The translations under genes and the position numbers were made by a program. A stretch of 64,000 nt of DNA. It comes from Candidatus Aerophobetes bacterium Ae_b3b (GTDB lineage: Bacteria > Aerophobota > Aerophobia > Aerophobales > AE-B3A). Where the stretch lies: assembly GCA_005223085.1 (NCBI GenBank), contig NJBP01000002.1:10902-74901 (forward strand), in the 5' to 3' direction. Positions 2,614 to 54,094 of this stretch are shown piece after piece (the stretch's first letter is position 1; every line of letters begins with the position of its first letter). The notes below the pieces were generated by a model. That model ran no database searches and was not told where the DNA came from. It saw only the letters and a program-made list of their open reading frames with translations.

Positions 2614-2725
2614 GAAAGCTTCTAAAAAGAAATTTAGTTATTTAACGCTTTTCTTCAGAAGCTTTCTCTTGTCCCAGCTACCGGCCTATGTACTTTCTCA
2701 CCCCCCTCCCGCCTTATTTTTAGAC
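2614..2725 (-). promoter_or_regulatory. Recurring structured leader, copy 1 (candidate cis-regulatory RNA)
   Basis: Read on the minus strand, the core (2725-2671) has outer arms GTCT/GGAC (one G-U pair), the A-rich strand AAAAATAA, inner arms GGC/GCC, and a purine-rich loop with GGGGGGTGAGA. A hairpin with perfect 10-bp arms (2657-2666 and 2614-2623) follows. The same order occurs at 8106-8215 and 18043-18155, and the core alone at 19891-19965. A possible promoter just upstream (CATAAT at 2764-2759, CTGACA-like box at 2785-2780) would start the transcript close to the core. This is the weakest-paired copy. Confidence 0.5.
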
Positions 2726-3099
2726 TTCCTTTCAAAAAAGACCTAACCTTGCTAACTAATTATGAGCACATTCATTCTTTGTCAGTAATCATAGTGTGAA
2801 GTACTGTGTCTCTAGTCATGTCTCTTTTCTCATATTTTCTACTACGGGTTTTAAAGCGTATCCTTTGTCATGCCCTTGACGAATTCCTCAAGTTGGAGAA
2901 TAACCTCTCTAGACTGATTCATTTTGACCCTCCCTTCTTGTCCATAGTTTTTCCCTGGAAAGGAGAATAGCAATTTTTCTCCTCCTTAACAAGAAGCAAT
3001 AATTACCGGACACAATATTTTTTATCCTCCTTAGCCTTCGCAAATTTCAATATCAGTTATTTTTCCCAGCTTTCAAATACGCTACAACATCGTATTTTC
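2726..3099. other. Intergenic stretch between sulfatase-like and binding-protein genes
   Basis: No convincing gene was found. Apart from the possible promoter next to leader copy 1, I see only low-complexity pyrimidine-rich DNA and no strong terminator after the sulfatase-like gene. Confidence 0.4.
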
Positions 3100-4518
3100 C
3101 TACTCCACCAAAAGTGGGGTACAGCCGGGCTCACCCTTTAGCTTCCTTAAGAACTCTGGAACCTTGCCACCGGCATCGGCAATTGCCAGATCTTTCATCC
3201 GCTCACAGATGTGAGGATACTCTTGGGCAATATTTTTTTCCAGTTTGGGATCAGCCTCTAAATCATAAAGAAGGGGGCTTTCACCCCAAAGATAAGCGTT
3301 ATACCAATAGTGTCTGTCACGAACCATAACGAATGGTCCCCAGCCACAGGTAACATGATCGTATATCTCTTTTCCTTTGCCTAAGGCTAGAGGCCAAATA
3401 TCTTTTCCATCCATGGGCTTTTCTGGCTCTATTCCTAATCTGGCAAGAATGGTGGCGGGTAAATCAAAGTTGTAAATTAGACTATCGCAGGTTGTACTTG
3501 CCCCTTCTGCTTCTGGATGGCGAATTATCAAAACCAAATCACAAATCTCTCGGCTCATGGGATGGCCTTGCTTTCCGACTATGTTATACTCACCAATGCA
3601 ATGCCCATGATCAGAGATGAGAGCAATGAGAGTATTCTCCATTAATCCAAGATTTCTCATCTTCTCAATAAAATAACCTAGCCATCGGTCTACCAATGTT
3701 ATCTCTCCGGCATAGTTTGCTCTAAGGCGTTTTAATACACGTGAGCTCAGTTGATCAACCGGACCATAAAGAGAGGATAAGAAGTCTATGGTATCATTAT
3801 CAGCATCATAGAGTTTTCTATAAGATTTAGGTGGATCCCAAGGCTCATGAGGATCAAAGGAATCAACCACGAGGAAGAACTTATCGGCATCTTGATTCCT
3901 CTCGAGCCAATTAGTAGCAGCTTTAAAAACCTGAGCAGGAAAATAATCCTCCTCACAATGTCTATCAGCCACATTAGTTAGATACTTGCCAACAAAATCT
4001 GTATAATTTCCAAATTTTTCTATTTTCCCAGATCCTCTTAACTTTGTTCTTAAATTTTCAGGTATGTGATTTTCAATCTCTTCCTCAGGTGGAGCAGGAC
4101 CTGAGCGATAAGGATCATGTTCCTGTCCTCTTATCCAGACCCACTCATCAAAACCACGATGAAAGTTCATTGATGGCTTAAACTGATGGTAAGTGTCGGT
4201 TATGAATGCCGTGCGATATCCATGCTGCTGCAGAATCTCAGTGATAGTATCACGTTCTTCGGAGATAGGCCCCCAGCCAGGTGAACCAATAAAAAGGTTG
4301 CCCCTGGAAGCTTTATGACCTATGAAGGGAAAGATATGACAGCCGGTTTGTAGAACTCTTCGAACCTGTAAAGTAGGAAGTGATTCTGGATAAGCATGGG
4401 TGAAAAGTACCGACTCTTTAGTTAAGGAGTCAAGATAAGGTGTTTTAATCCACTTATTTCCATAACAGCCTACATGATCCTGTCTTAAGGTATCAATGAT
4501 TATCAATACCACATTCAT
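3100..4518 (-). CDS. Sulfatase-like hydrolase (alkaline phosphatase superfamily), Thr at nucleophile position
   Basis: About 472 residues of the sulfatase fold. The N-terminus IIIDTLRQDHVGCYGN supplies metal-binding Asp, and LISDHGHCIGEY supplies the C-terminal Asp-His pair. Where sulfatases have C/S-x-P-x-R for formylglycine formation, this protein reads T-L-Q-V-R (before RVLQTG). It therefore seems unable to form formylglycine and may be a phosphodiesterase, phosphotransferase or other esterase. No signal peptide is seen, so it is probably cytosolic. The start at 4518 has GAGGAGG upstream. It is a paralogue of 11997-13367 and lies between two sugar-transport operons. Confidence 0.85.
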   Translation of the reverse strand: MNVVLIIIDTLRQDHVGCYGNKWIKTPYLDSLTKESVLFTHAYPESLPTLQVRRVLQTGCHIFPFIGHKASRGNLFIGSPGWGPISEERDTITEILQQHGYRTAFITDTYHQFKPSMNFHRGFDEWVWIRGQEHDPYRSGPAPPEEEIENHIPENLRTKLRGSGKIEKFGNYTDFVGKYLTNVADRHCEEDYFPAQVFKAATNWLERNQDADKFFLVVDSFDPHEPWDPPKSYRKLYDADNDTIDFLSSLYGPVDQLSSRVLKRLRANYAGEITLVDRWLGYFIEKMRNLGLMENTLIALISDHGHCIGEYNIVGKQGHPMSREICDLVLIIRHPEAEGASTTCDSLIYNFDLPATILARLGIEPEKPMDGKDIWPLALGKGKEIYDHVTCGWGPFVMVRDRHYWYNAYLWGESPLLYDLEADPKLEKNIAQEYPHICERMKDLAIADAGGKVPEFLRKLKGEPGCTPLLVE

Positions 4519-4891
4519 CCCATTTCCTCCTCGTAGAGCTTTTTTTAAAATTATCAGCCTGCCTACTTATCCTTTGTGTAACGAGCATTACTCTATTAAA
4601 ACTGGCAATTCCCTTTTATGAATATAAAACTTTGGGAGAAGTTATCCTGAAAATAAACTCAAATGCTTGCTAGTATAAACACACTATAGCTGATTACAAA
4701 TTAGCAAGGACAAAAGTCAACGTGACCCGTATCTTTCCTGTCTAATTGGGTGCAGAAAATTTCCGATTCGAGAAAAAATTACAAAGCTTCAAAGAAAATT
4801 GAATTACATTGAATTTTCCATCAAGGCCTTACAAAGAACGAGAAGTCAGGATAGGTGTTTAGCCCTGTCTTTCTATCGCTGTAACAGCACA
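4519..4891. other. Intergenic region upstream of sulfatase-like gene
   Basis: AT-rich, with no gene seen. A TATAGT hexamer on the minus strand near 4690 could be a -10 box for the sulfatase-like gene, but its -35 partner is poor. No intrinsic terminator with a T-tract was found after the permease stop at 4892. Confidence 0.3.
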
Positions 4892-5740
4892 TCATTGCTT
4901 AACAGCCCCCGCCGCAAGTCCCGCAACTAAATGGCGCTGCAACAAAAGGAAGAAAATAACGGTAGGGACAGTAGCCACGACTGAGGCAGCCATCACTACT
5001 CCCCAATCCGTTGTATACTGCCCAAGAAAGTTTGCTACCCCCACCGGTACGGTCTTTTTCTCAGTCTGGGTCATCAAGGTTAGCGCAAACACAAACTCGT
5101 TCCATGTTACTGCAAATGTATATGCTGAAGTTGCCACCAGACCCGGCAGGGAAATGGGCAAAATTACTCGAAAAATGACGCCCAGTGGTGAGCACCCATC
5201 GACAACGGCTGCCTCATCCAAGACTTTGGGAATTGTCTCAAAGTAACCTAATAGCATATATATGGAGAAAGGTACCGTAATGGCGATATAGACAATGATC
5301 AAACCCAGATAGGAGTTCACCAGGCGAAGGGCCCAAAACATCATAAAAACGGGGGTAACTAAGATTACCCAGGGGAACATTTGGGTAAAACCGACCATGG
5401 CCAATATTGAATTTCTCCCCGGGAAATGATAGCGGGAAATGGCATAAGCCGCTGGCGAAGAGATAAGCCAAACACAAACGATAGTAGCAGTCGTGCACAT
5501 AAACACGCTATTTAGAACGAAGCGGAAAAATCCAGCTTCAAGGATTCCCCGGTAATTTTCCAAGGTTAACGAACGACCGATCAATTGGAGTTCCCTGGTT
5601 AATAAATCAGTGGAAGGTTTTAGAGAACTAATAATCATCCAGAAGAAAGGGAATAGTATCAATCCAATGATGGCAAAAGTTACTACTACCACCGGTAAAT
5701 CGCGGATCCTTGAAGACATATTCTCTTCGCTCCATATCAT
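4892..5740 (-). CDS. Sugar ABC transporter permease, MalG type
   Basis: Second inner-membrane permease of a CUT1 importer, 282 residues with about six hydrophobic segments. The EAA loop reads DEAAVVDGCSPLG and then ILPISLPG, and the C-terminus carries the QRHLVAGLAAGAVKG-like tail (here ending AAGAVKQ) common in MalG relatives. Its ATG (5740) overlaps the stop of the upstream permease (ATGA), so the two are translationally coupled; Met8 is an alternative start. It is the last gene of the set 8064-4892, which has no ATPase of its own. Confidence 0.93.
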   Translation of the reverse strand: MIWSEENMSSRIRDLPVVVVTFAIIGLILFPFFWMIISSLKPSTDLLTRELQLIGRSLTLENYRGILEAGFFRFVLNSVFMCTTATIVCVWLISSPAAYAISRYHFPGRNSILAMVGFTQMFPWVILVTPVFMMFWALRLVNSYLGLIIVYIAITVPFSIYMLLGYFETIPKVLDEAAVVDGCSPLGVIFRVILPISLPGLVATSAYTFAVTWNEFVFALTLMTQTEKKTVPVGVANFLGQYTTDWGVVMAASVVATVPTVIFFLLLQRHLVAGLAAGAVKQ

Positions 5741-6675
5741 GCAGTTATATTTCGTTTAAAAAGAGTACTAAAATATACCAATGCGAATCCCATCATTATC
5801 ACCGTCATTATGACCCCAAAGGTTGCCCCGTACCCTACCTTGTAATTGACAAAGCTCTCGAAATACACATTGGTCCCCAGTACATGAGTAAAATCACCTG
5901 GACCTCCTCGGGTAGAGAGCCACACGTAAACAAAATTGTTAAATGTCCAGATTGTGATCATGAAACCCACGATGGTGATAATTGGTTTCAGAAGAGGAAG
6001 TGTGACATAACGAAGTTCATGAAACCAGCCCGCTCCATCGATTCTGGCAACTTCGTATAACTCCTGCGGGATGGATTGAAGCCCAGCAAGAAAACTGACC
6101 ACGGCGAACGGCAGCTCTCGCCATACCACTATTAAAATAATTGATAGCCAGACGACAGAAATATCAGTTAAGAAAAAAATCGGCTGACGTATCAATCCGA
6201 GGTTCTGAAGAGTTAAATTGACCACTCCGTATCTGCTATGAAGCATCCACTTCCAAATGGTTACCGCCACCACAGGAGGAACTCCCCAGGGTACAAAAAT
6301 AAGTATGCGCCCCATTCCGGCTAGGTGCCACCGCTTTAAGGCCTTGGAATTTAAAAGCAGTGCCAGTCCAAGACCCAGTAAAATCCGAAAAACCACCGTG
6401 GCCCCTGTGAGCCACAATACTGTGTTCTTAAGGGCATTATAAAACGCAGGATCCTCCGTGACCTTGATGAAGTTTTCCAGACCGACGAATTCTCCTCTTC
6501 CCTTGGCAGTCTCAAAAAGGCTAATCTTATGCAGACTGAGCTCTATATTATACAGGGAAGGTATGAAGAAAAAGAAGACCAGGAGGGCTACGGCGGGCAA
6601 AATCAACCCATAGGCGTGAAATCTAGGTCGATGAGACCTATGCAGCCTTCCCCAGAGATTATTACTCTTCCCCAT
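5737..6675 (-). CDS. Sugar ABC transporter permease, MalF type
   Basis: Inner-membrane permease, about 312 residues, with the EAA loop YEVARIDGAGWFHELR. I choose ATG 6675 (MGKSNNLWG) because a G-rich ribosome site lies 6-12 bases upstream. The frame stays open to a TTG at 6726, three bases after the binding-protein stop. That longer start would add 17 polar residues. It pairs with the MalG-type gene it overlaps and with the binding protein at 6730-8064. Confidence 0.92.
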   Translation of the reverse strand: MGKSNNLWGRLHRSHRPRFHAYGLILPAVALLVFFFFIPSLYNIELSLHKISLFETAKGRGEFVGLENFIKVTEDPAFYNALKNTVLWLTGATVVFRILLGLGLALLLNSKALKRWHLAGMGRILIFVPWGVPPVVAVTIWKWMLHSRYGVVNLTLQNLGLIRQPIFFLTDISVVWLSIILIVVWRELPFAVVSFLAGLQSIPQELYEVARIDGAGWFHELRYVTLPLLKPIITIVGFMITIWTFNNFVYVWLSTRGGPGDFTHVLGTNVYFESFVNYKVGYGATFGVIMTVIMMGFALVYFSTLFKRNITA

Positions 6676-6729
6676 TTCTAGCCCCCCTGTCTCCTTTTTA
6701 TCCTCACCTACACCATTTTCTTGCAACTT

Positions 6730-8064
6730 CTAGGACTTCCCGGTTGCCTCTTGCAATGCCTCCTCAATAGCCTCCAGGAGATCCTTGCTTGCTCTTTCTA
6801 CTGACTTCTGACCCGAATAAACCGCAGCGAATTCACGGTTCGTAAGGGACCACATCGTCTGTACTCGAACAGGTGAGACAATATACTCATAGAATGTCTG
6901 TGCTTGCGGTATGAGTTTTACATATCCCTCGTATTCAGATGCATAGCTAACTTTTTCCAGAAGCGTTTTTTGGGCGGAGAACTGTTGTCGGTAATAGGTT
7001 TCAAATACATGCTCAGAGCACATCCATTTTAGAAGTTCCCAGGATTCCTTTAGATGTTTGGTATTCTTGTTGATGGCCAGAGTGCGCCCTCCCAAGTGGG
7101 TTCGCCGAGTCACCCTGCCTGCCGGAACCTGGGCAGAGGCTAGGGGTGCCTGGGGATTAGCGTCCATTGCCGCACGAAATGATTGAGGGGGCATGAATCC
7201 CATAGCAAAGTCACCTTTGGCCAGTCCATGGAGTATCTCGGGGTCTCCCCAGGAGTCGACGGCGATTAAGGATCGTGGGGAAATACCTTCCTCAAAGAAA
7301 CTATTGAAATACCGCATGGCTTCCGCAATTGCCTCGGCATCAACTCCAAGTTGCCAGGTACCATCGCCGTTTTGTTTCATAAAGGTATATCCGTGACTCC
7401 AAATAAAGTAGTTAACCAAGAACCACATTCCCCCGGTAGGGCCGCTGCCGGCTGGAAAAGCAAAGCCGTATCGATCTATTATTCCATCTCCATCACGATC
7501 TTCGGTCAGTTTCTTTGCCACCTCTTTGAAATGAGACCAGGAATCGTCCGGAAAGCCAACAATACCCGCTTTGGCAAAGAAATCTTTTCGATATATCATC
7601 GCGAAGGTATCAGTGGTCCAAGGGATTCCATAGACATCATCACCCATCTTTCCAAGCTCTAGCGCGACAAAATCATCAATTCCCCTCGGTAGTGGATATT
7701 TCTCGAACAAGGGATTGAGTTTAACCAATGTACCAGCCTTGGCCAAGTCCATTGTCCATACAAAAGCAAGTTGGAGCACATCGGGGCCTCCACCAACTCC
7801 CGCTTCCCGGACAAATTGAGTAAGAGCATCTGACCAGGGTACTACCTCATATTGGACTTTGATGTTAGGATGCTTCCGGTCAAACTCTTGCACAGCTTCT
7901 GATAGGCCAGTAGCATCAGCCGGAGAATCGTTTTGCCGGAATATCAGACTAATCTTATCTTGGGCAAATCCGGCCATCCCGGTGACCAACGTTAAAGTCA
8001 AACTAAGACCTACTACTAAGACAAGCTCTATTAGTTTTCGTTTCTCAATTCTCATTAATTTCAT
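6730..8064 (-). CDS. Extracellular solute-binding protein (family 1)
   Basis: Periplasmic sugar receptor, 444 residues. GGAGG lies eight bases before ATG 8064. A signal peptide with a basic N-terminus and a long hydrophobic core ends near GFAQDK. The N-lobe shows FDRKHPNIKVQYEVVPW and GGGPDVLQLAFVWT. The middle holds a short Asp-rich loop (EDRDGDGIIDRYGF) like a calcium-binding turn, which some periplasmic sugar receptors have. It is the first gene of an operon with two permeases and is preceded by the best-paired copy of the recurring leader. Confidence 0.93.
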   Translation of the reverse strand: MKLMRIEKRKLIELVLVVGLSLTLTLVTGMAGFAQDKISLIFRQNDSPADATGLSEAVQEFDRKHPNIKVQYEVVPWSDALTQFVREAGVGGGPDVLQLAFVWTMDLAKAGTLVKLNPLFEKYPLPRGIDDFVALELGKMGDDVYGIPWTTDTFAMIYRKDFFAKAGIVGFPDDSWSHFKEVAKKLTEDRDGDGIIDRYGFAFPAGSGPTGGMWFLVNYFIWSHGYTFMKQNGDGTWQLGVDAEAIAEAMRYFNSFFEEGISPRSLIAVDSWGDPEILHGLAKGDFAMGFMPPQSFRAAMDANPQAPLASAQVPAGRVTRRTHLGGRTLAINKNTKHLKESWELLKWMCSEHVFETYYRQQFSAQKTLLEKVSYASEYEGYVKLIPQAQTFYEYIVSPVRVQTMWSLTNREFAAVYSGQKSVERASKDLLEAIEEALQEATGKS

Positions 8065-8105
8065 TTACTTTACCTCCTATATACAGGCATGGTTCAATTT
8101 GCCGT

Positions 8106-8215
8106 CAAATTCTCCAAGGAAATCTTAATTACCAGAGATCCCTTGGAAAATTCTTTGCCTCAAGCTAGCCTGGCCCCTTATCTCTCACCTCCCTCCTGGC
8201 CTTATTTTCTAGCTT
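8106..8215 (-). promoter_or_regulatory. Recurring structured leader, copy 2 (best pairing)
   Basis: On the minus strand the outer stem AAGCTAG/CTAGCTT (8215-8209 with 8168-8162) is a perfect 7 bp. The strand AAAATAA follows, then a 4-bp inner stem GGCC/GGCC (8201-8198 with 8175-8172) closing a loop that contains GGAGGTGAGAG. A second hairpin follows (about 8157-8141 with 8119-8106), then the ribosome site of the binding-protein gene. Core length is 54 bases. Confidence 0.6.
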
Positions 8216-8499
8216 TTGTTCCACCAAGCCAGATCGTGTTCTCCCAACCTCTCGGAAATTGCTTTATCACCTCGTCAGTTTATGGACCTCTTTTTAGATA
8301 TCCCTTTCACCTCCCTTCAATTTCTATTTCTACTCTCTGTCTTCTCGTGATAACAAAAACCTTAATTTTTTTAAACTTTGTTCTCTCAAAACTTTATCTT
8401 AGGATGCGGCTATTAGAAAACCAACACCAGAGAGGTGTAGTTGTTTATCTACTATACCCTGTGATCGGCAGAAAAGCTATATTAAGTCCTTGCCCGTAT
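8216..8499. other. Upstream region of second transporter operon
   Basis: No gene seen. A TATAGT hexamer on the minus strand (8456-8451) is a possible -10 box. The box CTCTCAAAAC (8383-8392, plus orientation) nearly matches two CTCTCAAAAAC boxes at 18214 and 18243 in front of the third transporter operon. These may be a shared operator or RNA element. Confidence 0.35.
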
Positions 8500-9807
8500 T
8501 TAGAAAGACCGACGATAAATTTGCTCCACATCTTCCTCAGTTGCTGGGACAGGATTCTTTTCTACACCTCTCCTCATAGTTTTAAACGCACCTTGGGCCA
8601 TATTCGAAATCTTATTTTGATCGATCTTCAATTGACTAAGATTTACTCTCAAACCCACCTTCTCCAGTAGCTCCTTTACTGCCTGGATACTCTTTTTTGC
8701 CTTCTCCTTAGTGCATTCACGTATCGATTGACCCATAGTTTTAGCTATCTCACAGTACTTATGCACAGTTTTTTTATCCCCGTTATCGATGTTAAACTCC
8801 ATCACGTTAGAGGAGATGGCAGCTAAGGCCACCCCATGATCAACATTAGGATAATGTCCGCTTATCGGATGAGCCATAGCGTGGGGAAGAGCTGCAGATG
8901 CGACGGCAATAGCCCAACCAGCGTAGGTATCAGCGAGGGCCATGTTGAATCTTGCCTCCATGTTATCTCCTTCCCGGTAGGCTGCAGGAAGATAACTGAA
9001 GACAAGTTCAATCGCCTTCAAGCAGTAGCTATCTACAATAGGATTACCCTCCCTGGATACAAAAGCCTCCAAAACATGGGCCAAGGTATCAAATCCTGTA
9101 CGGGCAGTTAGTTCTGGAGACATATTTTTTGCTATATTTAAATCTACAATGGATACCCGGGGATACATATACTCTGAACCGAACCCTGGCTTTTCACACG
9201 TCTCAGGGTTGCTAATCACAGCATATCTGGTTACATGACTTCCAGTACCCGACGTGGAAGTCACAGCAATTACGGGTAATGTGGCCTCGGTTATAGATAG
9301 TGGTTCATCCTGTGTTACCGAGAAATCCCAGATAGAACAGGGGCTACTTTTAGAGTGCCCTGCCACTACTGCTATTACTTTTGCCGAATCCATAGCCGAA
9401 CCTCCACCCATGCCCACTATCACCTCACACTGGTTTTGTAAAGCCAATTTAGCCCCTTCATCCACTATATCTACGGTGGGATTGGGTTCTACCTTCCCAT
9501 AATGGAATACCTTAAGCCCTTCTTGCTCCAGATATTTTCTTGCTTTGTCCAAGAATCCCAATCTCTGCATGCTTTTTCTACCTGTAACCAGTAGGACAGA
9601 TTTACCCAGTTTTCTTGTCTCTTTACCGAGACTTTCCAGCGCTCCCTCTCCAAATATGAGGTTAGTTCGAGGAAATAGGTACCGAAATGTCATTTTCTTC
9701 TCCATCTGTAGTTTATGACTACTTTTGCTTACCCTGTCTTCTATATTTTCCAGCACTCCTTTACCAGACATTAACTCTGTTCTGGGTAGCAGATATTCAA
9801 AATTCAT
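8500..9807 (-). CDS. Iron-containing alcohol dehydrogenase
   Basis: Group III (Fe-ADH) oxidoreductase, probably NAD(P)-linked. The nucleotide-binding part shows GMGGGSAMDSAKV. The iron site is given by DTLAHVLEAF, HAMAHPISGHYPNVDHG and a preceding Asp. The N-terminus is unusual: residues 1-23 (MNFEYLLPRTELMSGKG...) repeat as residues 39-61 (MTFRYLFPRTNLIFGEG...). Family members normally have one such segment, so translation may begin at 9693, where GGAG also precedes an ATG. The 9807 ATG overlaps the stop of the phosphodiesterase gene and has GGAG too. It probably oxidises or reduces a product of the island. Confidence 0.9.
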   Translation of the reverse strand: MNFEYLLPRTELMSGKGVLENIEDRVSKSSHKLQMEKKMTFRYLFPRTNLIFGEGALESLGKETRKLGKSVLLVTGRKSMQRLGFLDKARKYLEQEGLKVFHYGKVEPNPTVDIVDEGAKLALQNQCEVIVGMGGGSAMDSAKVIAVVAGHSKSSPCSIWDFSVTQDEPLSITEATLPVIAVTSTSGTGSHVTRYAVISNPETCEKPGFGSEYMYPRVSIVDLNIAKNMSPELTARTGFDTLAHVLEAFVSREGNPIVDSYCLKAIELVFSYLPAAYREGDNMEARFNMALADTYAGWAIAVASAALPHAMAHPISGHYPNVDHGVALAAISSNVMEFNIDNGDKKTVHKYCEIAKTMGQSIRECTKEKAKKSIQAVKELLEKVGLRVNLSQLKIDQNKISNMAQGAFKTMRRGVEKNPVPATEEDVEQIYRRSF

Positions 9808-11738
9808 TCTTCTTGCTCCACTACATCGTAAAGTACTCGCCCCTCTGCATTTCCCGGTGGGTGTATGCCTACAAGATAAGCTACAGTTGGTGTCACATCT
9901 ATAGTTCTCGCTGGAACCTTACGTCGATATCCCTTTTTAACACCTGGACCCTTTATGAAAAGAATTGCTTTCATCGTCCCCAAGTTCTGCCTAGAAGACG
10001 GAAGATAGGTATGGTGGACGCCAGCGAAGGGATAAATGCCTTCCTCAGACTCATAGGGAGGATCCTCAATAATAGGCAGTCCTTTAGTGAGTATCCAAGC
10101 TGTCTCATCGTTGTACTTTGGATTTAGAGTATATACGATATCTCCCACTCTATCTCCGTGCTGACCAAAAAACGCGGCCTCTTCCTTCTTCAAGATCATA
10201 TTTACGACATTCTCTCTAGTTTCTGGATCTTTGAGATTTCGGAAAAGGTCGATAACCTTCTCTCTTATCTTCTCGTAATCTTTAGGGTCTACAACCCCTC
10301 CTTTTTCTCGTCCGGCGAGGTTAACATAAATATACGAACCAAAGGGAGAAAAGACTTTAGTTTTGGACCAGTCAACTTTCAGGTTACCATCCTCAGTCTC
10401 TTTGTAAGCTATAAGACCTTCTCTCGCCAAAAAGTTATTGCAGTGGAATACCTTCCTTGGAGCCATATGTCCATGGTCTGAGACAACTAAGATAAGGGCC
10501 TCTTCTCCAGCTGCTTTCATAAGTCTTCCTAAGTAGACATCCGCCATCTGATAGACTCTACGGATGACCTCTTCACATTCTGTTGCCCTTTGCTCCTTGT
10601 AGGCAGAACTTTCCGGGTCCATTCCTCCAAGATAGCAGTGATCAGTGTAATCTATTCCGTGCCACTGGGCAAAGAGCATATCCCAGTCCTTATTCTTCAC
10701 AAGATACTCTCCTGCCTCTGCCAACCAGCTCATTTGATTCTCCAGCTCCTCTAGATATGTTTTTGAATCTATCCATCCTCCCAATATAGGACTGTAAATA
10801 TCACAGAGAAGCTGATACGGTCGGCCGATATGCTCTGTGAGCTCTCTGGCAAGACTATCTGGATAAGTCCACCCCGTGGAGGGAAAGATCTGGCTAAAGT
10901 AGAGACGAAACCTTTTCGCATCCTTGGAAAGCTCAATGAGTTTCATACGAAAGTTCCCTTCCTCTTTTCCTTTACTGGTGGTAAATTCTGCCTTCAAAAA
11001 GTTGCTCCACTCCCCTTCAGTTATGCTACATAAAGCTTTTTCTATATCTTTTTCCTCTGAGAGGAAAAATCTGTCGTAACCCTCACCTTTGCTATCTATA
11101 ACCAGAGCATAAAATGCTTTCTCTTCTCCCCCCGGAGGACGGATCTTTAGTATGGTCTCTAGCGGAGGAGAGTTTGAAGAAGGCCTGTTTCCCCATCTCT
11201 GCGCCTCCTTAAACTCTACCTTATAGGCACAGCTTATCTCCTTAGGTCCTGCCCCATAGGCTTCCATGTTTCTTTCTCGCATCTTCTCTGTGGAAAACCC
11301 AAGTCTAGGAGCAATTTGGAAAGGGTTCCAATCTGGATTTCCCACTCCTTCAACCTGTAGACCTTCCTTTATAGTTGGAGGCCAGGAGGCTGGGTAACGC
11401 AAGAGAATTACCTTCTTTCCCTGTCTTTCTGCTGCGTTCCATAGGTACTCTGCCTGACATCTTTCGGTGGTGAAAGACTGAAACCTCTCAGAAAGGGAAG
11501 TTCCGGGAAGATGAAGAGTCATCTCCACAATACCGTGAGTACCTACGTTGGCTCCTGTGGCAATACAGGTCCAGTTCATAGCTGTACCTGTGGGAATAGC
11601 AGGAAAAGTTTCTGAGGTCACTCCCTCTTCCATAAGGCGCTTCATGTTGGGAAGATGACCTTCCTTCACAAATCTTTCCACTAAGTTCAAATTCGCAGAG
11701 TCGAGTCCTAGTAGTATACATTTTTTTACGCGTGCCAT
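9804..11738 (-). CDS. Type I phosphodiesterase / nucleotide pyrophosphatase-like protein
   Basis: Alkaline-phosphatase-superfamily enzyme, 644 residues. It starts with CILLGLDSANLNLV (metal Asp). The nucleophile region NWTCIATGANVGTHGI has Thr, as in phosphodiesterases of this group. Further metal ligands appear as WHGIDYTDHCYLGG, VVSDHGHMAP and FAGVHHTYLPSSR. No signal peptide is visible. Long charged middle segments (about 200-330) make it larger than typical family members. It is coupled by a four-base overlap to the alcohol dehydrogenase. It probably splits a phosphoester or similar bond on an imported molecule. Confidence 0.85.
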   Translation of the reverse strand: MARVKKCILLGLDSANLNLVERFVKEGHLPNMKRLMEEGVTSETFPAIPTGTAMNWTCIATGANVGTHGIVEMTLHLPGTSLSERFQSFTTERCQAEYLWNAAERQGKKVILLRYPASWPPTIKEGLQVEGVGNPDWNPFQIAPRLGFSTEKMRERNMEAYGAGPKEISCAYKVEFKEAQRWGNRPSSNSPPLETILKIRPPGGEEKAFYALVIDSKGEGYDRFFLSEEKDIEKALCSITEGEWSNFLKAEFTTSKGKEEGNFRMKLIELSKDAKRFRLYFSQIFPSTGWTYPDSLARELTEHIGRPYQLLCDIYSPILGGWIDSKTYLEELENQMSWLAEAGEYLVKNKDWDMLFAQWHGIDYTDHCYLGGMDPESSAYKEQRATECEEVIRRVYQMADVYLGRLMKAAGEEALILVVSDHGHMAPRKVFHCNNFLAREGLIAYKETEDGNLKVDWSKTKVFSPFGSYIYVNLAGREKGGVVDPKDYEKIREKVIDLFRNLKDPETRENVVNMILKKEEAAFFGQHGDRVGDIVYTLNPKYNDETAWILTKGLPIIEDPPYESEEGIYPFAGVHHTYLPSSRQNLGTMKAILFIKGPGVKKGYRRKVPARTIDVTPTVAYLVGIHPPGNAEGRVLYDVVEQEE

Positions 11739-11759
11739 ACCATGCTTCTCCCTAGTTCG

Positions 11760-11992
11760 TTAATGTGCCCTTCGCAAAATTCGAAAATCAGCTACTGCTA
11801 CTTTATCTCCTATCTGCTTGCGATAGAGTATCCATCAGTCCAGAGTTTTCTGCTGCAGCATCTTCCGCTTAGATGTAGGAACTCATACAAAATCTCATTC
11901 CTCGATATACTCTTTATTATATTCACCAGCTTTGCTGGAGTGTGCCTTGGTGGAGCTGAAAGGAAAAGATGGACATGACCCCTCATATTGTA
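11760..11992 (-). pseudogene. IS200/IS605-type TnpA transposase remnant
   Basis: The minus-strand frame from 11992 reads NMRGHVHLFLSAPPRHTPAK, then VNIIKSISRNEI and KLWTDGYSIASR, ending in a stop at 11810. This matches the middle of Y1 (HUH) transposases: HVH is the His-hydrophobe-His motif, and SAPP, ISRNEI-like and LWTDGY-like segments are family landmarks. GDKVAVA continues in another frame, so a frameshift is present. The N-terminus and the catalytic Tyr region are missing. It begins only a few bases after the stop of the sulfatase-like gene. Confidence 0.75.
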
Positions 11993-11996
11993 AGAA

Positions 11997-13367
11997 CTAC
12001 CTCACTGAAGTGTGAGATAACTCATACTGAAGCTGCAACATCTTTGTTTTCTGGGAGAAGGTTCTGTTTATCTCTTTTACTTTAAGGGTGAAATACCTGC
12101 CAAGATGGGATAAAAACTCCTCTACTTTTTCCGGATACTCGTCGATGAGGTTTTTTGTTTCTTTAGAATCCCCCTTTAAGTTATAAAGTTCATTTTTCTC
12201 CCCTTCAGGGTGAACAAGTAAGCTCCACTCTTTATCTCGGATGCACCGATGATATGATTCATGGTAACCGGTTATGATAAAATCTCTTATCTTCTCCTTT
12301 TTTCCCCTAACAACGGGCCAGAAGCTTTTCCCGGACATAGCCTGGGTCTCTTTTTTGAGATCCATTGCCTCCAGGATGGTAGGAAGAACATCAGGCATTT
12401 GAATGAGAGTATCAATCCTTTTCCCTGCATAAAGTCCCTCAGGAGGATGAATGAAAAGAGGTATTCTTATAAGCTCACCGTATAGATTATCCGGGGTCTT
12501 CATTATGGAGCCATGATCTCCATGAGGATGTCCATGATCGGAGAGGAGTGCTATAAGAGAGTTATCATAAAGACCACAATCTTTTATCTTCTCTAAAAGG
12601 TATCCCACCCACTTATCCACAAAGCTTACCTCTCCTGCATATAGAGCTTTCACATATTTTAGCTCCTCATCACTCATCCAGTCAACTTTTCCATATTGGG
12701 GATGGATGAGTTTGGGACCTTCATAATTAGGATTGGTATACATCTTATCAAAAGGAGAAGGAGGGTCCCAGGGCTCATGGGGATCAAAGGAGTCCACCCA
12801 GAGAAAGATCTTTTCCTCACCTTTATTGCGTTCCAGCCACCTTACCGCCTCCTGCATGACCTGGGCGGCAAAATAGTCTTCTTCTTTTTGCCAATGTTCG
12901 GTATTTTTCAAGTACTGCTCAAGCATTCCCTCCACAGGATCGCCTTTCATGGCTGGCTTTATATAACCATTGATATTCTTATTTAAAGGGCCTGACACAT
13001 AGGAGTCTGCCTCCTGTCCCCTTATCCAACGAAAGCAGCTAAATCCTCGGTGAAAGTTCATGTCAGGTTTAAATAAATGGTAGGTGTCAGCAATCAAGGC
13101 TGAGGTGTAGCCGTACTCTCTCAATATCTCTGAGATAGTTACATCCTCTTTGGTTAAGGGTTGCCAGGGTCGGTAGGGAAGGCTACTACATCCTGTGAAA
13201 AGCTCAGTTCTAGCCGGAATGGTGGGAAGACCTTCGGTGTAAGCCTCTTCAAAGAGGATACTCTCCTTAGCAAATTTATCTATATTGGGCGTCTTTATCC
13301 ATGTATTCCCATAGCATCCCAGATGATCCTGCCTCAAACTATCCAGCATAATCACAATAAGGTTCAT
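11997..13367 (-). CDS. Sulfatase-like hydrolase, Thr at nucleophile position
   Basis: About 456 residues, paralogous to 3100-4518. It starts at ATG 13367 with AGGAGG seven bases upstream. Landmarks are IVIMLDSLRQDHLGCYGN, VDSFDPHEPWDPP and ALLSDHGHPHGDHG. The would-be formylglycine motif is T-I-P-A-R within EGLPTIPARTELFTG: Pro and Arg are kept, but Cys/Ser is replaced by Thr. No signal peptide is evident. This subfamily is called sulfatase by homology, but its chemistry is uncertain. It sits directly downstream of the ABC ATPase gene of the third transporter set. Confidence 0.87.
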   Translation of the reverse strand: MNLIVIMLDSLRQDHLGCYGNTWIKTPNIDKFAKESILFEEAYTEGLPTIPARTELFTGCSSLPYRPWQPLTKEDVTISEILREYGYTSALIADTYHLFKPDMNFHRGFSCFRWIRGQEADSYVSGPLNKNINGYIKPAMKGDPVEGMLEQYLKNTEHWQKEEDYFAAQVMQEAVRWLERNKGEEKIFLWVDSFDPHEPWDPPSPFDKMYTNPNYEGPKLIHPQYGKVDWMSDEELKYVKALYAGEVSFVDKWVGYLLEKIKDCGLYDNSLIALLSDHGHPHGDHGSIMKTPDNLYGELIRIPLFIHPPEGLYAGKRIDTLIQMPDVLPTILEAMDLKKETQAMSGKSFWPVVRGKKEKIRDFIITGYHESYHRCIRDKEWSLLVHPEGEKNELYNLKGDSKETKNLIDEYPEKVEEFLSHLGRYFTLKVKEINRTFSQKTKMLQLQYELSHTSVR

Positions 13368-13612
13368 CAACTTTCCTCCTGTTTTTTGATCTTATCTACT
13401 TTGCCTCTAGCCATAGTTTGGTTGGATATTCTGGTATTATTCATTACGAAAGGTAACCGTCAAAAAAATTGCAGGATGATCATAAGAAAGAACTAATCTC
13501 CTCGAGAAGAAATTTGAACCACGTCATACTCTCTACCTTTCTTTAAGAGCTCTACCGTAATCAAGTCACCGCTGAAGCCCTGGAAAATACTCATAATTCG
13601 GGATAGATTTCT

Positions 13613-14734: not shown

Positions 14735-14737
14735 TCT

Positions 14738-15613
14738 TCATTCCCGTGATCTTGCAACTAATCCTCGTATTATCTGTTTTTGAGCTAATAAGATGACTAA
14801 CAATATGGGGATCATGGACACAACCGAGGCAGCTGTCACTAAATCCCAAGGCTGATAATATCCAACCGCAAATCGAAATATACCAATTGGAGCAGGCTGA
14901 GACGCCTTGGTGTGACTGAACAAGTTAGAAAAGAAAAATTCATTGTAAGTCATTATGAATGTCATTAATCCTACTGAAATAAAGCCCGGTAGGGCTAAGG
15001 GAACAATTACTTTCCAAAGAGCCTCAATCCTTGTGCATCCTTCAACTCGGGCAGCTTTCTCCAGATCCTGGGGTATCTGTTTATAGAACGCCTGAAGGGC
15101 CCAAACTGCTATTGGTAGCAAGTAAGCCGAGTCTGGTAAAATCATGGCAAGATGGGTATCTAACAAACCCCATCTGGAAAACATCTCAAATAGAGGGAAG
15201 AGAAAAGATACTTGAGGAAACATGGAAAGTCCCAGAATTGTGAGCATTATGATCATCTTCCCTTTGAGGCGGGCTCTACCAAAAACATACCCGGCTAAAC
15301 TTCCAGCAAATAAAATAATAATTGTTGTGGAGCCAGAAATAATGACACTATTTAAAAGGTACCTTTCAAAATCCATGAATTTCCATATCTTTATAATATA
15401 TGGGCTAAGGTCAATACTCCTGGGTATAAGGTGTTGGATACGACTGTACAGTTCAGAGGGAGGTTTAACAGAAGACATGAATAACCAGTAAACCGGAAAT
15501 AAAGCCTGAAGAATAAAGATAGACACAAGTATCCAAAATGCTACTTTATAAAGTTTTGATCCATCCCCCTGAAATACTAATTTACTTGCCTTCTTTATTC
15601 CTTTTAAGATCAT
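14738..15613 (-). CDS. Sugar ABC transporter permease, MalG type
   Basis: 291 residues with six predicted membrane segments. The EAA loop reads LEKAARVEGCTRIEALWKV and then PLALPG. Its ATG (15613) overlaps the upstream stop in an ATGA, so it is coupled to the MalF-type partner. The C-terminal tail (QKQIIRGLVARSRE) is typical of MalG relatives. Confidence 0.93.
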   Translation of the reverse strand: MILKGIKKASKLVFQGDGSKLYKVAFWILVSIFILQALFPVYWLFMSSVKPPSELYSRIQHLIPRSIDLSPYIIKIWKFMDFERYLLNSVIISGSTTIIILFAGSLAGYVFGRARLKGKMIIMLTILGLSMFPQVSFLFPLFEMFSRWGLLDTHLAMILPDSAYLLPIAVWALQAFYKQIPQDLEKAARVEGCTRIEALWKVIVPLALPGFISVGLMTFIMTYNEFFFSNLFSHTKASQPAPIGIFRFAVGYYQPWDLVTAASVVSMIPILLVILLAQKQIIRGLVARSRE

Positions 15614-16626
15614 TTTCTTCTTTTCTCCATATATTGAATGAACACCAGGTAGGCCAATATAATAAGAAAAGTAAATATCATTGTCATCGTAGCTATTGCA
15701 CTTCCTTTTCCGATGTTCTTCGCAGTGAAAAAAGTCCTTATCGTTAATAACTGCAAGGTCTCGGTAAGTCTCCCTGGCCCTCCGCCTGTCATAGTCTCAA
15801 TAATGCCATATATCCTCATCGCTGTAATTGCCCGCCATAGCACCACTACTGTTATAGCTGGCATAATAAGGGGAAGGGTAATGTGCCGAAAGATCTGCCA
15901 GGTGTTCGCCCCATTTACCTTAGCTACTTTATAATATTCCGAGGGTATCGACTCCAGAGCTGCAAGTAGTAATAATGTACTGATAGGAATATTTCGCCAT
16001 ACTGCTGCAACAATAACAGCATTCATAGCTACAGCTGAGTACATCCAGTTAAATACATGGGAGTAAGATAGCAACCATGGAATGTATTCTTCTATGAATC
16101 CTGCTGACTTCAACAGATAGTTAATAACTCCATATTCGCTACTATACATTAGTTTAAAGGTTATACCTGCAATAGCTATAGGAGTAGCCCAAGGTACCAG
16201 AAGTGCAGTTCTAATAATAGCCTTTCCTTTAGTTTGTTTGGAGGCAAGAAAAGCACCCATCATTGCAAACAGGAGCATAAAAACAATATTTAAAACAGTA
16301 AAATAAAAGGAATGGAGAAGAGCGGCAAAAAAGATTGGGTCCGTCAAAAGGGAGATGTAATTGGCAAGCCCGGTGAATTTATACTCCAGCCAGGGTTTGG
16401 TCGGTGCATATTGGTGAAAGCTCACCCAAATTGTTCCAAGGAGAGGAACCCCGATTATTACGGTAAGTAATAGGATAAGGGGACTTAATAGGAGAAGACA
16501 AAAGTGCCCCTCCGATAGTCTTTCCACCCATAGACTGAATTTACCGGGTATACCTCTTATCCCATTTATGAAAAGACCCAGGGAAACCGTTCTTAGTTTC
16601 CCTGGGCTGTTTCTCCCTTTTACCAT
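15610..16626 (-). CDS. Sugar ABC transporter permease, MalF type
   Basis: Up to 338 residues, with the EAA-type loop YKVAKVNGANTWQIF. The start is uncertain. The open frame begins at ATG 16626, but its first 20 or so codons run through a perfect 11-bp hairpin (16577-16606) that looks like an intergenic stem-loop. A GTG about 40 codons in, just before the first membrane segment, is an alternative. It is part of the third transporter set 18008-13613. Confidence 0.9.
   Translation of the reverse strand: MVKGRNSPGKLRTVSLGLFINGIRGIPGKFSLWVERLSEGHFCLLLLSPLILLLTVIIGVPLLGTIWVSFHQYAPTKPWLEYKFTGLANYISLLTDPIFFAALLHSFYFTVLNIVFMLLFAMMGAFLASKQTKGKAIIRTALLVPWATPIAIAGITFKLMYSSEYGVINYLLKSAGFIEEYIPWLLSYSHVFNWMYSAVAMNAVIVAAVWRNIPISTLLLLAALESIPSEYYKVAKVNGANTWQIFRHITLPLIMPAITVVVLWRAITAMRIYGIIETMTGGGPGRLTETLQLLTIRTFFTAKNIGKGSAIATMTMIFTFLIILAYLVFIQYMEKRRK
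16577..16606 (-). terminator. Stem-loop between binding-protein and permease genes
   Basis: Perfect 11-bp arms (16577-16587 and 16596-16606) with an 8-base loop are followed on the minus strand by TCTTTTC. It lies about 30 bases after the stop of the binding-protein gene. Such hairpins often let the receptor be made in excess of the permeases, by partial termination or mRNA protection. Confidence 0.65.
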
Positions 16627-16634
16627 ATCACTGT

Positions 16635-18008
16635 TTACTTTTTCCTTCCATACTCTTCCTCGATCTTCCTCATACCGGCTTCAAGACGTTGAACAGCTTC
16701 CTTCACATCGTACTGGCCAATTAGCATAGGCTTAAGTACATCTATCAGCAGTGCTCTCAGCTCCCCGTAGACCGGGCTGAACGGCCGCTCATTAGCGTAT
16801 TGAACTGCTTGCCCAATGGTTCTCGCATAGGGGGCAAGCAAAGGGGAAACTTCTTTAATTTTCTCAGGAGTGAAAAGAGCCGAGTAGGGAGGTAGGGCTC
16901 CCATAGCGTTAATGAGGAAGAGCAATGAATTGGGCTCTGCTGCTGCTTGAATTACCTTTACTGCTGCCCTCTTGTTCTTGGAGTTGGGATTCACTCCCCA
17001 CCACCATCCCCCCATTGAACTGTTGCCATGAGGAGACATTGCCGAGTAAAGTGGTGTCGCTGCCCATTTCTCGGAAGAGAGTCCAGTTACCGGTTCCAAT
17101 TGAGTAATTCCGAAGTTCCAGAGTCTCATAAAAACGGACTTACCGGCACCAAACATCCTCATCGCGTCACTGTTATTCCAACTGATAGCTTCTTTAGGCA
17201 TAATCTTGTGCTTTAAATACAAGTCCTGCCAGGCCTTCAGAGTCATAATAACCTCGGGGGCATCAGCGGTTATGGGACGGTCTCCTACCGGTCCATAGAG
17301 ATACTGTTTTCCTCCGTAGAGATATCCGTCAAAAGCCCGCAAAAGCTCAAAGAAGAAGCCATCAAAACTTCCACCCTCATGGGGAGCGATCCAGCCGTAA
17401 GGAACACCTTCTTTTTCAGAGACCTTTTTAGCAGCATCAATGAGGTTGCCCAAGCTGGGGTTACTGTCAAACTGTAAGGGAGTAACCTTGTATCCATATT
17501 TTCCTAAGAGATCCTTCCGCACGTAGAGAACTCCTACCCCGAACCGCCAAGGAACAGCATAGTACTTGTTACCCCATGCCGCAGCATAAATACTTTGGTG
17601 TACTGGAAAAAGTCGGTTCCAAAAATCTTTGGGCATGTGTTCCATCAGTGCTTCCGCATCTAGCCATCCTGCAGTAACATATTCTGCATAGTCCTCTACG
17701 GTAAGACTGGTGAGGTCCGGTAGTGACTGTCCAGTTATCATAATTGTGGCAACTTCTTCCCTTTCCTTGGGGACACTGACATCAGAACGTCCAGGAACGA
17801 ATTCGACTTTTATATCTTCTCCCATTTTTATTACATTGTCTTGAACGATGGATTTCCACTTCTCCCAGTTCTCATCAGTCATTCCCTTATTAGCCCGGAA
17901 CTGAACTTTAGTGGTAGCCCCAGCGGTACCGAGGCTAATCCCTGCTAGGATAAGGCAACTCAAAGCCAATATACAGAGACTTCTGCAAACATTTGCTTTT
18001 GCTCTCAT
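16635..18008 (-). CDS. Extracellular solute-binding protein of third sugar ABC importer
   Basis: 457 residues. GGGAGG lies six to seven bases before ATG 18008. A signal peptide with hydrophobic core LCILALSCLILAGISLG ends near AGATTK. It diverges from the other two receptors but keeps the pattern of a family 1 binding protein: an early MITGQSLPDLTSLTVEDYAEYV segment (shown here in parts: GQSLPDLTSL, DYAEYVTAGWLD) and a C-terminal helix EAVQRLEAGMRKIEEE. It is the first gene of the best-defined operon of the island, with a strong promoter and leader copy 3 in front. Confidence 0.9.
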   Translation of the reverse strand: MRAKANVCRSLCILALSCLILAGISLGTAGATTKVQFRANKGMTDENWEKWKSIVQDNVIKMGEDIKVEFVPGRSDVSVPKEREEVATIMITGQSLPDLTSLTVEDYAEYVTAGWLDAEALMEHMPKDFWNRLFPVHQSIYAAAWGNKYYAVPWRFGVGVLYVRKDLLGKYGYKVTPLQFDSNPSLGNLIDAAKKVSEKEGVPYGWIAPHEGGSFDGFFFELLRAFDGYLYGGKQYLYGPVGDRPITADAPEVIMTLKAWQDLYLKHKIMPKEAISWNNSDAMRMFGAGKSVFMRLWNFGITQLEPVTGLSSEKWAATPLYSAMSPHGNSSMGGWWWGVNPNSKNKRAAVKVIQAAAEPNSLLFLINAMGALPPYSALFTPEKIKEVSPLLAPYARTIGQAVQYANERPFSPVYGELRALLIDVLKPMLIGQYDVKEAVQRLEAGMRKIEEEYGRKK

Positions 18009-18042
18009 ATTTTCCCTCCCTGAAATATGGTTCGAATTTCTA

Positions 18043-18155
18043 GGAAAGCTCTCATCAAGAAAAAACCATGAGTTAACAACCTACCTCGAGAACTTCCTTT
18101 TCCTGAGCTGACAGCCTACTCATTCTCTCACCTCCTCCTGGCCTATTTTTAGCTC
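18043..18155 (-). promoter_or_regulatory. Recurring structured leader, copy 3
   Basis: On the minus strand, outer arms GAGCT/AGCTC (18155-18151 with 18109-18105) are joined by AAAAATA to inner arms GGCC/GGCT (one G-U pair). The loop carries GGAGGAGGTGAGAGAA. A second hairpin pairs 18097-18088 with 18053-18043, with one bulge. The ribosome site for the binding protein follows. The outer-arm sequence differs from copies 2 and 4, yet pairing is kept. Confidence 0.58.
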
Positions 18156-18274
18156 TTCTCTTACCGACAATCCAGCTTCACTACTACTTGTGAGGATTTT
18201 TCGAGCAGCATTTCTCTCAAAAACTTTCCTTAACAATGTTCACTCTCAAAAACATTGACAAAACATCCATCGAG

Positions 18275-18303
18275 ATTATACCAAAAAAGAGCCGCTTTGG
18301 CAA
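18275..18303 (-). promoter_or_regulatory. Sigma-70-type promoter of third transporter operon
   Basis: TTGCCA (18303-18298), a 17-base spacer and TATAAT (18280-18275), preceded by TGG as in an extended -10. The predicted leader is about 260 bases. It contains two identical 11-base boxes (18243-18253 and 18214-18224) before leader copy 3. Confidence 0.75.
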
Positions 18304-18368
18304 GACCACCCTCGTTTTAGTTTCGCCTTCTAACCTGCATTCCTCATCGATCCAGAAAAGATTGCCCC

Positions 18369-19346
18369 TTACTCTCCCTTCAGCATCTCCCTTCGTTTGT
18401 TGAGCAGAGATTCAATAGCTTCTATATCTTCATTGGAGAGAGTCCACTTTGCTGCAACAACATTTTCCTCAATTTGAGATTGTCGTCGTGCCCCTACGAT
18501 AGCTGCGGTTACCTCGGGACGTCGTAGCACCCAACCAATCGCCACGTGCGCCACAGTGATATCATTCTTTTTGGCAATAGACCGTAGGCCCTCAACCAAC
18601 GCAAGATTAGCGCCTAACTCGGGTTCCTGAAAATGAGGATCTCTATCACGCCGATGGTCATCGTGGGGCAAGCTGTGTATCCACTCCTTGGTGAACTTCC
18701 CGGTCAAAATGCCCTTTTGCAGGGGACTGTACACAATGACACCGATGTTGTTGGCTGCACAATAATCCAGCAGCCCTTCCTCCACACCCCGCTCGAGCAT
18801 ACTGTAGGGCGGCTCGAGTGAAGCCACCGGATGAATGGGCTGGATACGTTGGAGTTGTTCTACGTTGAAATTAGAAACTCCAATGTAGCGGACCTTCCCC
18901 TCTTTTACCAGCTCGGCCATGGCAGCCCAGCCTTCCTCAATATCTTTGTCGGGATCTGGCCAGTGCATTAGATACAAATCAATAACCTCGACCTTTAGTC
19001 GCCGGAAGCTTGCCTCAATTTCGCGGCGGATACTGTCTTTGGTCAGTATGCCAGATATCTTCCCCTTTGAGTCCCACTTCCGACCGCACTTGGTAACAAG
19101 GATCACCCGCTCACGTATTCCTTTGATAGCCCTGCCCACGACCTCCTCTGAGTGACCAAATCCGTATACTGGAGCGGTATCTATCCAATTTATCCCTAGT
19201 TCCACACCTCGCCGGATCACAGCAATCGACTGTTCGTCATCCTGGGGACCCCAACTCCATGTCCACCCGCTTCCTCCAATTCCGGCCGTCCCTAGTCCAA
19301 TGGTTGATAGGCTAAGCCCTGTGTAACCCAGTCTTCTTGTCTTCAC
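18369..19346 (-). CDS. Aldo/keto reductase
   Basis: NAD(P)H-dependent carbonyl reductase of about 325 residues (TIM barrel). The catalytic tetrad is visible: Asp and Tyr in IDTAPVYGFGHSE, Lys in LVTKCGRKW and His in LYLMHWPD. The C-terminus has the cofactor-phosphate segment IVGARRQSQIEENVVA. I use GTG 19346 (VKTRRLGYTG) because GAGGAGG lies seven bases upstream; a TTG at 19364 overlaps that site. It probably reduces or oxidises a sugar derivative imported by the island. Confidence 0.92.
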   Translation of the reverse strand: MKTRRLGYTGLSLSTIGLGTAGIGGSGWTWSWGPQDDEQSIAVIRRGVELGINWIDTAPVYGFGHSEEVVGRAIKGIRERVILVTKCGRKWDSKGKISGILTKDSIRREIEASFRRLKVEVIDLYLMHWPDPDKDIEEGWAAMAELVKEGKVRYIGVSNFNVEQLQRIQPIHPVASLEPPYSMLERGVEEGLLDYCAANNIGVIVYSPLQKGILTGKFTKEWIHSLPHDDHRRDRDPHFQEPELGANLALVEGLRSIAKKNDITVAHVAIGWVLRRPEVTAAIVGARRQSQIEENVVAAKWTLSNEDIEAIESLLNKRREMLKGE

Positions 19347-19406
19347 CACTACGCCTCCTCGCAAGTCTTATAAAGGGTCAATTTTCGATGAGTAAGCGCT
19401 ACCACA

Positions 19407-19427
19407 CCTGAGGTTCTCTTCCTCAGG
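19407..19427 (-). repeat. Short perfect hairpin upstream of aldo/keto reductase
   Basis: CCTGAGG and CCTCAGG arms (7 bp) around a 7-base loop, about 60 bases upstream of the reductase start. It could be an operator or an RNA hairpin. No T-tract follows. Confidence 0.4.
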
Positions 19428-19510
19428 CCAGAAGTATATCTAGCCCCCGAGCCTTGCTTTCTGACCACCAAAAGCATATCTCCTGCCTTACGTTTCTTCC
19501 AATTCTTCTT

Positions 19511-19627
19511 TTACCTGCTCGACACAGCTGCGTCCATAATTCTACTCACGTAAGTAATTATCTCGCCTCCTTTTATTTCCATTTCTCCACGTATGGAGCC
19601 ATCCCCGGCATATAAAATTTTGATCAC
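19511..19627 (-). pseudogene. Short reading frame, probable gene fragment
   Basis: A GTG (19627) with GGGAGG upstream opens a 38-codon frame beginning VIKILYAGDGSIRGE and ending at TAA 19511. The opening strand resembles the start of some Rossmann or amidotransferase-like proteins, but it is too short to assign. A fair promoter (19703-19732) precedes it. It may be a truncated gene or a small peptide gene. I cannot name it. Confidence 0.35.
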
Positions 19628-19702
19628 GCCTCTTACCTCCCATTCTTATTTTTGAGATCCAGCTTGCGATTCTGACAGAATAACAAAGTTCCTTTTATCC
19701 TA

Positions 19703-19732
19703 ATTATGATTTGAACATGGTTGCAGGGTCAA
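19703..19732 (-). promoter_or_regulatory. Possible sigma-70 promoter
   Basis: TTGACC (19732-19727), an 18-base spacer and CATAAT (19708-19703) on the minus strand. It would transcribe the short frame at 19627 and possibly the aldo/keto reductase. Confidence 0.45.
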
Positions 19733-19890
19733 GCAGGCGTGGTATCTTAAGTCTGACCAGTCTGTTTCCACCCTTTTCGTCTGGTGACGCCTCAGCAGCC
19801 ATACCATAGATCTATCTCTTGTTCTCGCCTCTTCAAACTGGACTCGACCTTTTCGGTGACATGGCTTTCCTGGCTACTTCACATATCTCC

Positions 19891-19965
19891 AAGCTGGATC
19901 GGCCCTCCCTACCTGTCGGCGGACTACCTAACTCCTCACCTCCTGTCGGCCCTATTTTCCAGCTT
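19891..19965 (-). promoter_or_regulatory. Recurring structured leader, copy 4 (no adjacent receptor gene)
   Basis: On the minus strand, outer arms AAGCTGG/CCAGCTT (19965-19959 with 19897-19891) form a perfect 7 bp. AAAATAG follows, with inner arms GGCC/GGCC (19951-19948 with 19904-19901). The loop is longer than in other copies but keeps AGGAGGTGAGGAG. No binding-protein gene follows; the next intact gene starts at 19346. This copy may be orphaned by a deletion. Confidence 0.55.
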
Positions 19966-54082: not shown

Positions 54083-54094
54083 GGAGACGATTTG

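Follow-up and report, generated by a model that had tools for sequence, protein, structure and literature searches.

A structured leader recurs on the minus strand of a 64,000-nucleotide stretch of Candidatus Aerophobetes bacterium Ae_b3b (contig NJBP01000002.1, positions 10,902 to 74,901), hereafter the window, which is part of a 2.04 Mb draft genome. Four copies are present, three of them ahead of genes for solute-binding receptors, and sequence comparison identifies them as members of a conserved, covarying 5'-leader RNA in Aerophobetes.

The four leaders and their genes

All four minus-strand copies reported in the initial annotation lie where it placed them, and all are also placed by the covariance model R1 described below, whose E-values for these copies are given at whole-genome scale. 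A 24-nt core pattern allowing up to 3 mismatches matches three of the four and has no match in 100 dinucleotide shuffles of the window. Each copy contains a core hairpin, P1, with a loop resembling a Shine-Dalgarno (SD) sequence, and in copies 1 to 3 P1 is followed by a second hairpin, P2, and then by a receptor gene, as had been described. The features are as follows.

2674..2727, minus strand: P1 core hairpin, copy 1, with degenerate stems (R1 match, E 1.2e-3)
2697..2706, minus strand: SD-like loop GGGGGGTGAG, copy 1 (sequence, core-pattern scan)
2614..2666, minus strand: second hairpin P2, copy 1 (predicted 20-bp hairpin, L069)
2594..2604, minus strand: box TGAGCCAAGTC, copy 1 (aligned with the boxes of 43 other leaders)
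1225..2517, minus strand: solute-binding receptor gene SBP_bac_1 after copy 1 (Pfam; mechanical open reading frame (ORF) 1225-2541)
8161..8215, minus strand: P1 core hairpin, copy 2 (R1 match, E 6.5e-8)
8184..8192, minus strand: SD-like loop GGAGGTGAG, copy 2 (sequence)
8101..8158, minus strand: second hairpin P2, copy 2 (predicted 20-bp hairpin, L059)
8086..8097, minus strand: box TTGAACCATGCC, copy 2 (sequence, box alignment)
6730..8064, minus strand: solute-binding receptor gene SBP_bac_1 after copy 2 (ORF, Pfam)
18104..18155, minus strand: P1 core hairpin, copy 3 (R1 match, E 1.7e-7)
18127..18135, minus strand: SD-like loop GGAGGTGAG, copy 3 (sequence)
18042..18098, minus strand: second hairpin P2, copy 3 (predicted 20-bp hairpin, L060)
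18022..18035, minus strand: box TCGAACCATATTTC, copy 3 (sequence, box alignment)
16635..18008, minus strand: solute-binding receptor gene SBP_bac_1/8 after copy 3 (ORF, Pfam)
19890..19965, minus strand: P1 core hairpin, copy 4, with enlarged loop and no adjoining receptor gene (R1 match, E 3.8e-4)
19935..19943, minus strand: SD-like loop GGAGGTGAG, copy 4 (sequence)

The outer stems (AAGCTAG/CTAGCTT, AAGCTGG/CCAGCTT and GAGCT/AGCTC) and the inner stems (GGCC/GGCC or GGCC/GGCT) are as originally described. The single architecture ascribed to all four copies needs correction in two of them: copy 1 is degenerate, with inner stem GGC/GCC, an outer stem of only about three good pairs and the loop GGGGGGTGAG, and copy 4 has an enlarged loop. 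The receptor gene after copy 1 likely starts at ATG 2517, judging from the SD sequence at 2521-2530. Copy 4 has no clear second hairpin, and the next full gene, for an aldo/keto reductase, starts about 525 nt away; this copy may be a leader left over from a decayed gene. Downstream of it, at 19550-19630 (minus strand), there is a short reading frame that is interrupted and has an SD of its own. We also note a weak plus-strand P1 match at 38786-38844 (E 0.065) with no adjoining receptor gene, which is probably due to chance.

A covarying hairpin family in Aerophobetes

In P1, an outer stem with 5-7 pairs encloses the strand AAAAUAR, which faces 1-3 nt, and an inner GGCC/GGCC stem closed by a purine-rich loop some 20-30 nt long. 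R1, built on the P1 core from 18 copies, gives 31 matches at E<=0.5 in the window's genome. In 16 relatives, each with at least one match, it gives about 120 at E<=0.05; these are draft genomes in which genes or copies may be missing. Under a stricter filter (242 genomes, E<=0.01) matches are present in 16 of 17 Candidatus Aerophobetes genomes but in only one of 225 others, about two chance matches being expected at this threshold. A strict core pattern occurs seven times in the window's genome and not at all in a reversed control, and across 84,980 species genomes it is found in nine stretches, of which eight carry the label Aerophobetes and one the label Clostridia. The latter is probably mislabelled, since its sequence matches that of a genome assigned to the same family as the window.

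The family does not correspond to one already described in Rfam, in keeping with the initial annotation. At the gathering threshold the only Rfam matches in the window are two strong cobalamin riboswitches, at 49731-49953 (minus strand) and 54084-54268 (plus strand), both away from the leader copies, and relaxing the search to E<=5 over positions 1-21000 yields only chance-level matches. A literature search found no paper naming both Aerophobetes and riboswitches, although a published orphan motif outside Rfam may exist.

Covariation in the outer stem had been proposed from the four copies alone, and it is upheld across the family. In an alignment of 100 copies, itself fitted to the covariance model, all 11 P1 pairs show two-sided changes. 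There are 45 such cells, whereas shuffles give 11.6 and slid controls no more than 17; since the shuffles ignore relatedness, more weight falls on the slid controls. The sequence alignment of 18 copies that preceded the model has two-sided changes at four pairs, a number reached in none of 500 shuffles. The stems contain 78 G-U pairs and 32 A-C mismatches, an excess that favours folding of this strand as RNA.

This excess also bears on the idea that the element acts as DNA, either as a repeat belonging to a mobile element or as a repressor site. There are many copies per genome, some pairs have similar upstream flanks (L005, L007) and a transposase-like ORF enters one copy (L006). However, a gene on the same strand starts 22-190 nt after nearly all copies, those from seven families sit at the starts of receptor genes, and some copies have clear promoter-like sequences upstream, so that with the G-U pairs we give a purely DNA-level role almost no credence. 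The promoter-like sites, of the sigma-70 type (TTGACA, 16-18 nt, TATAAT, at most one mismatch), lie ahead of 16 of 142 copies compared to 0.4 in shuffles keeping base content only, and most end about 14-40 nt before P1; at the remaining copies such sites are weaker or not recognisable. Some individual leaders are unusual. L177 (L035) is a weak P1 match (E 0.02) with inner stem TGGCA/TGCCA ahead of a flagellin gene, L121 has a second AGGAGGTGAGAAGAGTAAGTAGGCC segment after P1 and P2, as if P1 were partly duplicated, and in L006 (L049) the transposase-like frame is truncated and the leader lies upstream of a short-chain dehydrogenase gene.

The second hairpin is less uniform than P1. A P2 of at least 18 bp beginning no more than 14 nt after P1 is found in 71 of 145 copies compared to 15.5 in dinucleotide shuffles, with a mean z of -2.1 for single-sequence folds. 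These folds constitute the support for P2, as RNAalifold, applied to the P2 sequence alignment, was defeated by slippage in the register of the inner helix and yielded no useful structure; one set of pair counts had been selected for pairing and is illustrative only. P2 loops are 4-15 nt long and often close to GUGUUGAAARAUUA, and the box UGAACCAUGUC is often present downstream. None of 45 leaders has a U-run after P2, and an intrinsic attenuator is thereby rejected.

The SD-like loop and the genes downstream

The most constant part of the leader is the loop GGAGGUGA, which is complementary to the 16S rRNA tail and whose likeness to an SD sequence had been recognised from the outset. An exact GGAGGTGA is found in 105 of 150 copies, and 146 have this sequence with at most one mismatch. 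The 16S rRNA of the window's genome ends in GGATCACCTCCTTT, so that eight pairs with the loop are possible, and the loop octamer is predicted to be more open than in shuffles (0.60 compared to 0.46, p 7e-4, n=37).

The loop mostly lacks a usable start codon. In 17 of the 115 cores containing GGAGGTG a start codon lies 4-11 nt after GGAGG, while in the other 98 there is none at SD spacing. A short leader peptide begun at the loop, its translation controlling the gene, would make use of the GUG within GGAGGUG; in about half of the copies an in-frame stop comes no more than four codons after it, and TAA/TAG is somewhat commoner in the GUG frame than in the others (82 versus 57 and 50). But the SD and GUG are not spaced apart, the frames are of very uneven length (1-67 codons) and, as the initial annotation also observed, no conserved peptide appears in the reading frames of the loop, which together with the 98 cores lacking a usable start codon makes a leader peptide very improbable.

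The next start lies a median of 97 nt from P1. By Pfam, the 136 downstream proteins include 67 SBP_bac_1, 24 SBP_bac_5, 7 Peripla_BP_4, 5 DctP, 4 Peripla_BP_6 and 2 TctC, counts that partly overlap between related families, and 123 of 141 downstream proteins have a hydrophobic N-terminus. Thus the link to receptors first drawn from the window is borne out but its restriction to sugars is not: the receptors belong to ABC, TRAP and tripartite transporters with no common substrate, and other downstream genes encode short-chain dehydrogenases and a permease. In one relative a full leader (L030) lies ahead of groES and groEL, neither of them a transport gene. Within the window, two sulfatases, a phosphodiesterase-like protein and an iron alcohol dehydrogenase are encoded between the receptor genes at 3100-13370 (minus strand), which suggests use of sulfated sugars.

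A mixture of receptor types without a shared substrate argues against a substrate sensor. A substrate-sensing riboswitch is not supported and is unlikely, as there is no common ligand, P2 is not followed by a U-run and the gene's own SD is not predicted to be sequestered (unpaired 0.47 versus 0.50 in shuffles). A riboswitch or other aptamer could instead sense a single general signal, such as a metabolite that reports nutrient status, and control the uptake receptors jointly at translation. Such a device would account for a conserved, covarying fold in the 5' leader of a single functional class of genes, for internal-loop bases of P1 that are conserved beyond the SD-like loop, and for the conserved P2 loop and downstream box. 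The diversity of receptor ligands, the leader on groES in one genome, the lack of a recognisable platform (others are conceivable), the failure to match Rfam and, as described below, the retention of the upstream SD in receptor genes without P1 all speak against it, and we regard it as unlikely.

The strong conservation of sequence in both paired and unpaired parts would also fit recognition by an RNA-binding protein that regulates receptor mRNAs globally, and a GAF-ANTAR protein, a possible RNA-binding regulator or antiterminator, is encoded at 21254-21988 (minus strand), a few genes from the copies. No candidate protein is linked to the leader, however, and the pair of hexanucleotide loops (A1, G4) that defines ANTAR targets is not present, nor does a terminator follow; this reading too seems improbable, slightly more so than the general riboswitch. 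CsrA is found in none of 17 genomes, and a CsrA/RsmA target RNA is rejected on this ground.

A more general relationship emerges from the receptor genes as a whole. The window's genome has 41 SBP_bac_1 matches, and P1 lies directly upstream of 20 of these, but most of the others have a sequence like AAAGGAGGTGA 25-190 nt ahead of the start; some of these P1-less leaders retain weak remnants of P1 and some none. With a fixed pattern (GGAGGTG or GGGGGTG at -200 to -25), an upstream SD is found at 38 of 40 SBP_bac_1 genes, compared to three of 51 other genes with intergenic upstream regions and none of 41 operon-internal genes (Fisher p 1.2e-19), with the provisos that the pattern was derived from P1 and adopted after reading the same genes, and that one genome is covered. 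The three positives among the 51 look like exported receptors themselves, one being a receptor of the SBP_bac_1 set read from another start. Of the two SBP_bac_1 genes without the pattern, L190 has a copy of P1 that carries GGAGGCGA (L055). Among 15 receptor genes on plasmids of alphaproteobacteria, Enterococcus, Pantoea, Deinococcus and Actinomycetes, none has an upstream SD.

Ribosome docking as a proposed function of the leader

On balance, and by a modest measure, we favour the view that the leader is a 5'-untranslated RNA whose functional core is a second, non-initiating upstream SD, AGGAGGUGA, which docks the 30S ribosomal subunit. The initial annotation had offered control of translation or a decoy ribosome site, and of these ideas a non-initiating ribosome site is now the best, because 38 of 40 receptor genes have the upstream SD, including genes that lack the fold. 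P1, a bulged hairpin, would serve as a scaffold holding the SD open in its loop, followed often by P2, the box UGAACCAUGUC and the gene's own SD. The 30S subunit would bind the loop through the 3' end of its 16S rRNA and stay near the 5' end of the mRNA, where it could shield the message from decay, or provide a standby site from which the true start close by is loaded, or both; a standby role fits equally well as protection from decay. Solute-binding receptors have to outnumber their permeases, which would explain why receptor genes carry the leader, and the pattern suggests that ribosome docking far upstream may help to set receptor production.

If decay is blocked, the enzyme concerned may be RNase Y, which is above the cut-off in seven of eight genomes. 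RNase J is above the model cut-off in none of 17 draft Aerophobetes genomes, and RNase E/G was not found above the cut-off in the Aerophobetes genomes examined, so that any protection would act on a different enzyme than in the STAB-SD system described below.

Several observations weigh against docking as a full account. It leaves unexplained why AAAAUAR, the GGCC stem, the P2 loop and the box are conserved, and it is possible that a protein or ligand acts on top of it. The known STAB-SD acts against RNase J, the very enzyme not found above the cut-off in this phylum. Codon adaptation does not differ between receptors with and without P1, a comparison made moot by the upstream SD that nearly all of both sets carry. 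The element was not found at ribosomal-protein genes read as a control, and thus it is not a general high-expression device. The fold, its covariation, loop conservation, association with receptor genes and the upstream SD of 38 in 40 of these can be read from the sequences themselves, while binding of 30S and its effect are what we infer from them.

Taken together, a structured leader RNA family outside Rfam is added, spread through an uncultured and barely known phylum, and an upstream non-initiating SD is a near-universal mark of one functional class of genes in the genome studied. If docking is confirmed, these bacteria, which seem to lack RNase J and RNase E, would offer a rare instance of gene expression being set across a genome by ribosomes that bind away from the start. 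A bolder scenario, which we hold only tentatively and think doubtful, is that the phylum couples its uptake receptors to the pool of free 30S subunits, with a dedicated, folded, non-initiating docking RNA on almost every receptor mRNA setting stability and translation as one regulon without any substrate-specific sensor.

Comparison with known leader elements

Like riboswitches and other leaders in Rfam, the Aerophobetes element covaries, has conserved internal-loop bases and lies ahead of transport operons, but it differs in having no Rfam match, no common ligand among its genes and no expression platform that we recognise. ANTAR targets are defined by a pair of hairpins, each with a loop of six bases that includes A1 and G4, and by a terminator after them (PMC3369931). 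The Aerophobetes leader resembles them in its two consecutive hairpins and the GAF-ANTAR protein encoded nearby, but an ANTAR target was rejected, as neither the P1 loop (about 20-30 nt) nor the P2 loop (4-15 nt) is of the defining kind and no U-run follows.

A closer parallel is seen with the STAB-SD of Bacillus thuringiensis cry3A, in which a 30S subunit on a 5' SD blocks RNase J1 (PMC4113751). In both, the 5' untranslated region has, at a distance from the start codon, an SD-like sequence that matches the 16S rRNA 3' end and lacks a role in starting translation, here as judged from its placement. However, STAB-SD is described as a short sequence near the 5' end that protects against RNase J1 in Gram-positive bacteria, whereas the Aerophobetes SD usually lies in the loop of a covarying hairpin followed by a second one, and marks one functional class of genes in a phylum where RNase J was not found above the cut-off.

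Standby sites in structured 5' untranslated regions, at which 30S may wait upstream of the true start, are usually single-stranded and are not a conserved SD. The Aerophobetes loop, in contrast, is a near-perfect complement of the anti-SD and is repeated ahead of dozens of genes.

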